This document shows positions 28,117 to 29,893 of a stretch of DNA of 64,000 bases, piece after piece. The first letter of the stretch is position 1, and each line of letters begins with the position of its first letter. The translations under genes and the position numbers were made by a program. The notes under the pieces were generated by a model. That model searched no databases. It saw only the letters and a program-made list of their open reading frames with translations, and was not told the DNA's origin. This DNA comes from Streptomyces armeniacus (GTDB taxonomy: Bacteria > Actinomycetota > Actinomycetes > Streptomycetales > Streptomycetaceae): NCBI RefSeq assembly GCF_003355155.1, contig NZ_CP031320.1, positions 1,040,369-1,104,368 of the forward strand, read 5' to 3'.

Positions 28117-28836
28117 ATGACCATGCGCAAGGGCACCAACGTTCCCGTACCGGCCCCGGCCGTACGGGTGGAGCTGGGCTGGCACGCCGGTCCCGGAGTG
28201 CCGGACGTGGACGCCTCCGCCCTGCTGCTGGTTTCCGGCAAGGTACGGTCCGACGCCGACTTCGTCTTCTACAACCAGCCGCAGGACCCGGTGGGCGCCG
28301 TCCGGCACGAGGGCAAGCGCACCGAGGGGGCGACGGTGACCGACGGCCTCTCCGTCGCGCTGGAGCGCGTCGAGCCGGCCATCGAGACGATCGTCGTCGC
28401 GGCCTCGGCCGACAGCGGCAGCTTCGGGCAGGTGCCGGGACTGTACGTACGGGTGCTGGACGCGGCGGGCGGCGCCGAACTCGCGCGGTTCGACAGCACG
28501 GACGCCAGCAGCGAGACCGCGTTCGTGCTGGGCGAGCTGTACCGCAGGCAGGGCAGCTGGAAGTTCCGCGCCGTCGGCCAGGGCTACGACACCGGACTGG
28601 CCGGGCTGGCAACGGACTTCGGCATCAGCGTGGACGAGCCGCAGGCACCGGCCGCGCCCCAGGCGCCGTCGCTTATACACATCTTACGCTGCACACGAAG
28701 GCCTACGGGTAGATCCCGTGGGGTGCCGGTGCCTCGAAAAAAACCACCCGCCTCTTCCCCGGCGTCACGCTGCCCCTGTGCGCCGCGGTGTTCACCCGCT
28801 GCCGCGGGCCGCAGCGCCAGATCACCGCCGAGGTAA
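28117..28836 (+). CDS. TerD-family protein whose 3' end is replaced by adapter sequence
   Basis: Residues 1-180 are an intact TerD domain, with the calcium-binding type stretch DADFVFYNQPQDPVGAVRHEGK and the closing LATDFGISVDE. TerD proteins bind calcium and are tied to tellurite or stress resistance and phage defence. After about residue 183 (PAAPQAPS) the frame enters sequence matching a Tn5/Nextera adapter, so everything past 28666 up to the stop at 28836 is probably not native. The true protein may have a longer C-terminal domain. ATG 28117 has GAGGGG upstream. Confidence 0.8.
   Translation: MTMRKGTNVPVPAPAVRVELGWHAGPGVPDVDASALLLVSGKVRSDADFVFYNQPQDPVGAVRHEGKRTEGATVTDGLSVALERVEPAIETIVVAASADSGSFGQVPGLYVRVLDAAGGAELARFDSTDASSETAFVLGELYRRQGSWKFRAVGQGYDTGLAGLATDFGISVDEPQAPAAPQAPSLIHILRCTRRPTGRSRGVPVPRKKPPASSPASRCPCAPRCSPAAAGRSARSPPR
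28666..28743. other. Degraded Nextera/Tn5 adapter plus poly-A: assembly artefact
   Basis: Seventeen of 19 bases at 28666-28684 match the Tn5 mosaic end read outward, including an exact CTTATACACATCT. The next 14 bases match the Nextera read-1 adapter (GACGCTGCCGACGA) at 11 positions. Eight index-like bases follow, then a stretch like GTGTAGATCTCGG..., then seven A at 28737-28743. This order is what an Illumina read gives when it runs through a short insert. Adapter sequences are recalled from memory. Confidence 0.85.
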
Positions 28837-28992
28837 AGCATGCGACCGTCACCGGCACCCGCGACGAGAACTTCCGGCAGATCGAGCAACTCCTGAGCCC
28901 ATCCGGCCAGCACGCATGCGGCGGGCCCACACCCCACCTCCACGAAGGGCAGCCCCGGGCACCACCAACCCCCCGCCCCGCCCGTTCAGCCC
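28744..28992 (+). other. Coding-like remnant without a recognisable gene
   Basis: About 250 bases between the artefact and the LysR stop. In the plus frame containing TCRGPQ/RQITAEVKHATV and ENFRQIEQLLSPSG the third codon positions are nearly all G or C, as in real genes of this genome, but the frame differs from TerD and has no start or natural end. It is probably the fragment of a gene cut by the faulty join. I cannot assign a family. Confidence 0.35.
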
Positions 28993-29880
28993 TCAGCCCC
29001 GTGCCGCTGTCTCCAGCCGGTCCAGCATCCCGCCGACCACGGGCACCCTCGCCAGGTCCGGCAGGGTCAGCGCCACGACCTCCCGCCGTACGTCCGGCTC
29101 CAGCCGCACCGTCGCGACGCCCTGCGTACGCACCGAGCGGACGGCCAGCTCCGGCAGCACGGCCACGCCCAGACCCGCGCCCACCAGGCCGACGACCGCC
29201 GGATAGTCGTCGGTCGCGAAGTCGATCCGCGGGGTGAAACCGGCGCGCTCGCACACGTCCACCAGATGGGCGCGGCAGCGCGGGCAGCCCGCGATCCACG
29301 GCTCCTCGGCGAGGGTGCCGATGCCCACCACCGGCGCGTCCGCGAACCGGTGCTCCGCCGGGACCAGCCCCACCAGCCGGTCCGCCAGCAGCGGGCGTAC
29401 GACCAGGTCGTCCCACTCGGGCGAGGGCTCGTAGCGGAACGCGAGCGCGATCTCGCAGTCCCCCGCACGCAGCATCTCCACCGACCCCGGAGGCTCCGCC
29501 TCCACCAGCGAGACACGGGTGCCGGGGTGGTCGTTCCGCATCGCGGCGACGGCCGTGGGGACGAGCGTCGAGCTGCCGCTCGGGAACGAGACCAGCCGGG
29601 CCCGCCCCGCCCGCAGCCCCGCCAGCGCCGCCACCTCCTCCTCGGCGGCGGTGAGCCCGGCCAGGATGCCGGCGGCATGCCGTACGAGCGCCTGGCCCGC
29701 CTCGGTCAGCCGCATCTCGCGGCCGGAGCGCACCAGCAGCGGCGTGCCCGCGGACTGCTCCAGGGCCTTCATCTGCTGGCTGACCGCGGGCTGCGTACAG
29801 CCCAGCCGGCGGGCGGCGGCCGAGAACGACCCCGTACGGTCCACGGCGCGCAGCACGCGGAGATGGCGAGCCTCGATCAT
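28993..29880 (-). CDS. LysR-family transcriptional regulator
   Basis: About 295 residues. The helix-turn-helix is HLRVLRAVDRTGSFSAAARRL with the family stretch GCTQPAVSQQMKALEQ. The C-terminal periplasmic-binding-like domain senses a small ligand. It is divergent from the MOSC gene, which it may control. ATG 29880 is preferred because TATGCT lies seven bases upstream; ATG 29892 is four codons longer. A cysteine pair in AGCPRCRAHLVDVCE is unusual and might respond to redox or metal. Confidence 0.88.
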   Translation of the reverse strand: MIEARHLRVLRAVDRTGSFSAAARRLGCTQPAVSQQMKALEQSAGTPLLVRSGREMRLTEAGQALVRHAAGILAGLTAAEEEVAALAGLRAGRARLVSFPSGSSTLVPTAVAAMRNDHPGTRVSLVEAEPPGSVEMLRAGDCEIALAFRYEPSPEWDDLVVRPLLADRLVGLVPAEHRFADAPVVGIGTLAEEPWIAGCPRCRAHLVDVCERAGFTPRIDFATDDYPAVVGLVGAGLGVAVLPELAVRSVRTQGVATVRLEPDVRREVVALTLPDLARVPVVGGMLDRLETAARG

Positions 29881-29887
29881 GCCCCCG

Positions 29888-29893
29888 AGCATA
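29888..29893 (-). promoter_or_regulatory. Leaderless-type -10 box of the LysR gene
   Basis: Minus-strand TATGCT, seven bases, then ATG 29880. Confidence 0.5.

Follow-up and report, generated by a model that had tools for sequence, protein, structure and literature searches.

Nextera adapter residue marks a false join of terD and a LysR-type regulator gene in a single-contig Streptomyces armeniacus record

Does Streptomyces armeniacus carry, beside the gene of a LysR-type regulator, a terD gene whose C-terminus is altered, or do these impressions stem from the way in which the genome record was assembled? The window (the whole stretch of DNA that was analysed, 64,000 nucleotides) covers bases 1,040,369-1,104,368 of the single 8,083,249-base contig that forms the 8.08-Mb record (G000). 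Between the two genes, a first-pass annotation made from the sequence had recognised a Nextera/Tn5 adapter and poly-A embedded in the assembly. The features of this region, in window positions, are the following.

28117..28665, plus strand: 5' part of terD (TerD domain; Pfam TerD PF02342, E 2.7e-49), at the point where the genomic sequence of the left contig truly ends
28666..28684, plus strand: Tn5 mosaic end, 17 of 19 bases, with an exact core at 28672-28684
28685..28698, plus strand: P5-side read adapter, 11 of 14 bases
28699..28706, plus strand: index bases (8), 6 of 8 matching the complement of index S508
28707..28735, plus strand: distal P5 adapter, 18 of 29 bases
28737..28743, plus strand: seven A, a tail read past the adapter end; the P5-arm consensus likewise runs into poly-A
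28744..28991, plus strand: foreign read-like piece, a 93% copy of 4,670,182-4,670,429 of the same record (the 4.67-Mb locus)
28993..29892, minus strand: complete LysR-type regulator gene (Pfam LysR_substrate and HTH_1), which starts the right contig's own sequence

Adapter residue beside terD

The mosaic end is the recognition sequence of the Tn5 transposase. Its 13-base core, CTTATACACATCT, is the sole match in the 64-kb window at up to two mismatches, where 0.01 would be expected by chance. The window was scanned without gaps with a template of the Nextera (Tn5) P5-side read-through (69 fixed positions). Positions 28666-28742 agreed with the template at 52 of the 69, the next best score elsewhere in the window on either strand was 32, and the reversed template reached at most 33. 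The elements stand in the order of a Nextera read-through: mosaic end, read adapter, index, distal adapter and poly-A. The index bases agree at 6 of 8 with the complement of S508, the index that best fits the P5-arm sites of the record. The counts of the first-pass annotation are right in each of the parts it had named (11 of 14 bases of read adapter, about 18 of 29 of distal adapter and seven A). Its view that chance would not give this order is upheld by the template scores and by a count of mosaic-end-like sites in the whole record, 92 against none for a reversed pattern.

The stretch 28666-28743 is confirmed as sequencing adapter residue, an artefact and not a real biological feature, because the template scan is joined by 91 further mosaic-end-like sites and by a consensus of index, distal adapter and poly-A after such sites. 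The left contig most likely closes with the seven A, which would put the contig boundary at 28743/28744. An exact search for the junction sequence in a named genome collection, which may omit the window's own genome, gave no match, and a GC profile around the join added little.

Flanks whose true neighbours lie elsewhere

An open frame runs from terD through the adapter to 28836, and it is not a natural protein. Both flanks were compared with six relatives, picked from 36 same-genus genomes as having both flank matches on one contig. In all six, synteny with the left flank stops at about 28643-28660, synteny with the right flank begins at 29012-29051, and a distance of 2.65-5.0 Mb separates terD from the LysR gene. 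Five of the relatives have a TerD frame of 425-475 aa, and the sixth has one of 237 aa. The true neighbours of each flank were found elsewhere in the record, both ending at adapter-marked junctions. The terD-LysR join is therefore false and links two unrelated pieces of the chromosome. Since the window contains no N, the join passes as continuous sequence.

The remainder of terD was traced with genome G031, in which the sequence downstream of the terD match has its own match in the S. armeniacus record at 7,478,586-7,481,473. The C-terminal half of the G031 TerD has its match at this 7.481-Mb locus (80% identity); for the N-terminal part, the window's terD is the only match among the three loci compared, two of which overlap. 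The TerD domain score of that C-terminal half is 23.0 bits, just below the curated cut-off of 25.3. Judged by these matches, the missing 3' half of terD lies at 7.481 Mb, about 6.4 Mb from the window's terD. The earlier warning that the TerD C-terminus is unsafe was well founded, given the longer frame in five of six relatives and this distant half in the same record. A mosaic end lies at 7,481,761, in the junction beside the contig with the terD 3' half; the adapter tail there is that of the far-side contig, and a foreign piece lies between.

The right flank gave a similar result. The G031 sequence past the 3' end of the LysR gene has a match in the record at 7,379,870-7,382,486, and the usual neighbour of LysR accordingly lies at 7.381 Mb. 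A mosaic end follows at 7,382,584, and its adapter tail follows the neighbour's own contig. LysR loci were collected from 80 named relatives, all labelled Streptomyces, and from 29 unnamed ones (the sets share some genomes; flanks reached at most 3 kb and 1.5 kb). The 7.381-Mb block stands beside LysR in 79 of the 80 named and 29 of the 29 unnamed loci (108/109), terD in 0/109 and the middle piece at 28744-28991 also in 0/109.

This middle piece has an origin of its own. Over its 248 bases, the first 127 are identical to the 4.67-Mb locus and mismatches then rise, so that the 25-base bins from 28950 and from 28975 hold 7 mismatches each. Both the length and the error gradient of the piece fit a single Illumina read, some 250 bases long and running left to right, that appears to have been misplaced. 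A second read-like piece, at 7,481,450-7,481,740, is a 95% copy of 3,792,869-3,793,156 and separates the contig with the terD 3' half from the adapter. Its errors crowd toward the terD 3'-half contig, save for four mismatches in the last 13 bases, at the opposite edge. The two pieces are near mirror images in their error gradients, and the simplest reading is that a noisy read tail was wrongly overlapped with a contig end.

As to the extent of the fault, the first-pass annotation was right about the adapter and the TerD end but understated the damage, in that the flanks are unrelated and 28744-28991 is misplaced as well. Neither the altered C-terminus of terD nor its place beside a LysR regulator is real, and no biology should be inferred across 28665-28992.

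Recurrence of the adapter and spacing of the junctions

How far does the artefact extend through the record? The exact 13-mer occurs 12 times in G000, and the reversed pattern is absent. The 92 mosaic-end-like sites were counted over 19 bases at up to three mismatches; none is exact, two have one mismatch, 54 have two and 36 have three. An adapter arm follows in 67 of the 92 (53 P5 and 14 P7), where about five would be expected from the arm threshold, which was met by 1,185 of 20,000 random window positions. Arm classes were set on the first 14 or 15 bases only, and later bases serve as an independent test. Beyond the classing bases, the P5 consensus shows an index that differs by one base from the S508 complement; distal adapter (26 of 29 bases) and poly-A come next. 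In the P7 consensus, from 14 sites only, there is an index one base off N705 and 19 of 24 bases of distal adapter (both consensuses counted by eye). Among 16 i5 indices S508 fitted best, with a mean of 5.40 of 8 bases (next 3.08), and among 24 i7 indices N705 fitted best, with a mean of 4.71 (next 2.79). At least six of the eight index bases agree at 28 of the 53 P5 sites for S508 and at 8 of the 14 P7 sites for N705. The sites carry one consistent index pair, S508 and N705, as copies of one library do.

By the same threshold, 25 of the 92 sites are without recognisable adapter. In five of these it is hidden by an N run that begins where the mosaic end stops or no more than one base away; some of the other 20 show distal adapter or poly-A out of register by eye (L086, L101, L111). 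The complete P7 adapter, index included, had no match in G000 when three mismatches were allowed, because the copies are heavily damaged. T-to-C and A-to-C changes are the two commonest substitutions in P5-class sites (102/255). The P5 arm, which outnumbers the P7 arm (53 vs 14), is sequenced in read 2, as a rule the poorer of the two reads. It seems that near-exact copies were trimmed or masked and only error-bearing ones escaped.

Runs of N at or just past the mosaic end, or within the arm, were observed in G000 at L064, L079, L085, L095 and L129, as well as at L059 and L083. It is as though masking by an adapter screen had caught the better copies and spared the damaged ones. At L094 (G000:C1:7,932,393-7,933,060), two mosaic ends face each other 49 bases apart, both with a P7 arm, back to back; apparently two contig tails were trimmed at one point and then joined.

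With a clustering distance of 400 bases, the 92 sites fall into 82 clusters. This number is only an estimate, as a junction whose adapter can no longer be read escapes the count, and a few of the unclear sites may be something other than junctions. The sites of two-site clusters face each other in 10 of 10 cases, 49-195 bases apart, as expected if two adapter-tailed contig ends were put end to end. From left to right along the record, the spacing between clusters falls from hundreds of kilobases to a few (Spearman -0.88 over 83 intervals, readable-adapter junctions only), and 36 of the 82 clusters lie beyond 7.5 Mb. The draft contigs were apparently joined from longest to shortest, an order that would account for the position of both broken ends' partners among short contigs near 7.4-7.5 Mb.

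Explanations, consequences and known artefacts

The record is best explained as a concatenation of Illumina draft contigs, assembled from incompletely adapter-trimmed Nextera reads, with a false join at terD/LysR; we put the probability of this reading at about 97%. Trimming before assembly would have left adapter in some Nextera reads. The left contig would end within terD, where short-insert reads ran through the mosaic end, the P5-side adapter, index, distal adapter and poly-A, and only noisy tails too error-rich for trimming may have survived. At its left edge the right contig would carry the foreign read (28744-28991, about 250 bases), and the noisy 3' end of this read was probably taken, wrongly, to overlap the beginning of the LysR contig. 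The draft contigs would then have been strung into one record, apparently from longest to shortest. Points against this reading are the 25 sites left unclassed, the lack of any full P7 adapter match and the four mismatches of the second piece that lie at the wrong edge.

Other explanations fare much worse. Streptomyces chromosomes are known to rearrange, and the synteny of two relatives is intact on each side up to the join; the adapter could accordingly be a local blemish, such as a badly filled gap, between flanks made truly adjacent by rearrangement. This is very unlikely, as a real rearrangement would leave no adapters at the partner ends, whereas the terD 3' half and the usual neighbour of LysR are still in the record, each ending at an adapter-marked junction. 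The 82 clusters and their falling spacing moreover point to a fault of the whole record. A purely local gap fill is rejected, given the position of the true neighbours at other junctions.

Less credible still is that the living strain carries a Tn5/IS50-like transposon end of natural origin, or a scar left by a Tn5 insertion made in the laboratory. The mosaic end is established as the sequence that Tn5 transposase recognises, but what follows it here is library adapter and no transposon; 14 other sites carry the P7 arm, and sites of either orientation are scattered along the record. A biological scar is rejected on account of the index, distal adapter and poly-A downstream. Chance resemblance in GC-rich sequence could appeal to the imperfect match outside the 13-base core, yet its probability is negligible beside the template score, unmatched anywhere else in 64 kb or by the reversed template, and the genome-wide count of sites with its empty control. 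The scan and the reversed controls rule it out.

Adapter residue was also sought in other genomes of the genus. The exact 13-mer core is present in at least 34 of 295, G000 included; assemblies in this genus often hold adapter residue. Such residue usually sits at contig starts, and among the matches listed outside G000, those on the minus strand lie in the first 93 bases of contigs. The comparison with independently assembled relatives that the first-pass annotation had proposed was run in part and agrees with its reading, as the core is absent, by this count, from 261 of the 295 genomes and the matches listed resemble adapter residue. The 9.03-Mb single contig G012:C1 (9,034,319 bases) holds 162 mosaic-end-like sites, with one in the reversed control, and N runs stand beside the site at two of four of its loci (L147, L149, L151, L153). 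G012 is probably a second case of concatenated contigs. Mosaic-end-like sites numbered zero in G005, G009, G013 and G031.

We consider it highly probable that some single-contig species representatives in public collections, G000 and probably G012, are draft contigs concatenated with adapter at the seams. G000 is listed with a completeness of 100 and a contamination of 0.31; such scores do not reveal concatenation of this kind, and error-laden residue escapes near-exact adapter screens. A statement in PMC10898089 holds that NCBI's older screen (VecScreen and megaBLAST) misses a nontrivial amount of contamination; the literature found, PMC7717575 included, is general work on contamination and misassembly. 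Gene order, gene clusters, fusions, operons and rearrangements are unsafe wherever they are inferred across one of the 82 junctions detected. Other single-contig genomes can be checked cheaply for the same fault by a mosaic-end scan that tolerates errors and has the reversed pattern as its control. The artefact is accounted for by known laboratory and assembly steps; its value is practical, for data quality, and its biological interest is small.

Two known artefacts meet in this record. Nextera or Nextera XT read-through in draft assemblies shows the same order of elements, and both arms are present in G000. In G220 and G201, read-through left exact copies at contig ends (8 of 9 mosaic-end copies are exact in G220), whereas the G000 copies, none exact, lie inside one seemingly continuous sequence. 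Unlike concatenation with an N spacer, the join in the G000 window is made without N. The record is otherwise like a pseudo-chromosome of concatenated contigs: a single contig, with unrelated neighbours at its junctions and a spacing that shrinks along its length.
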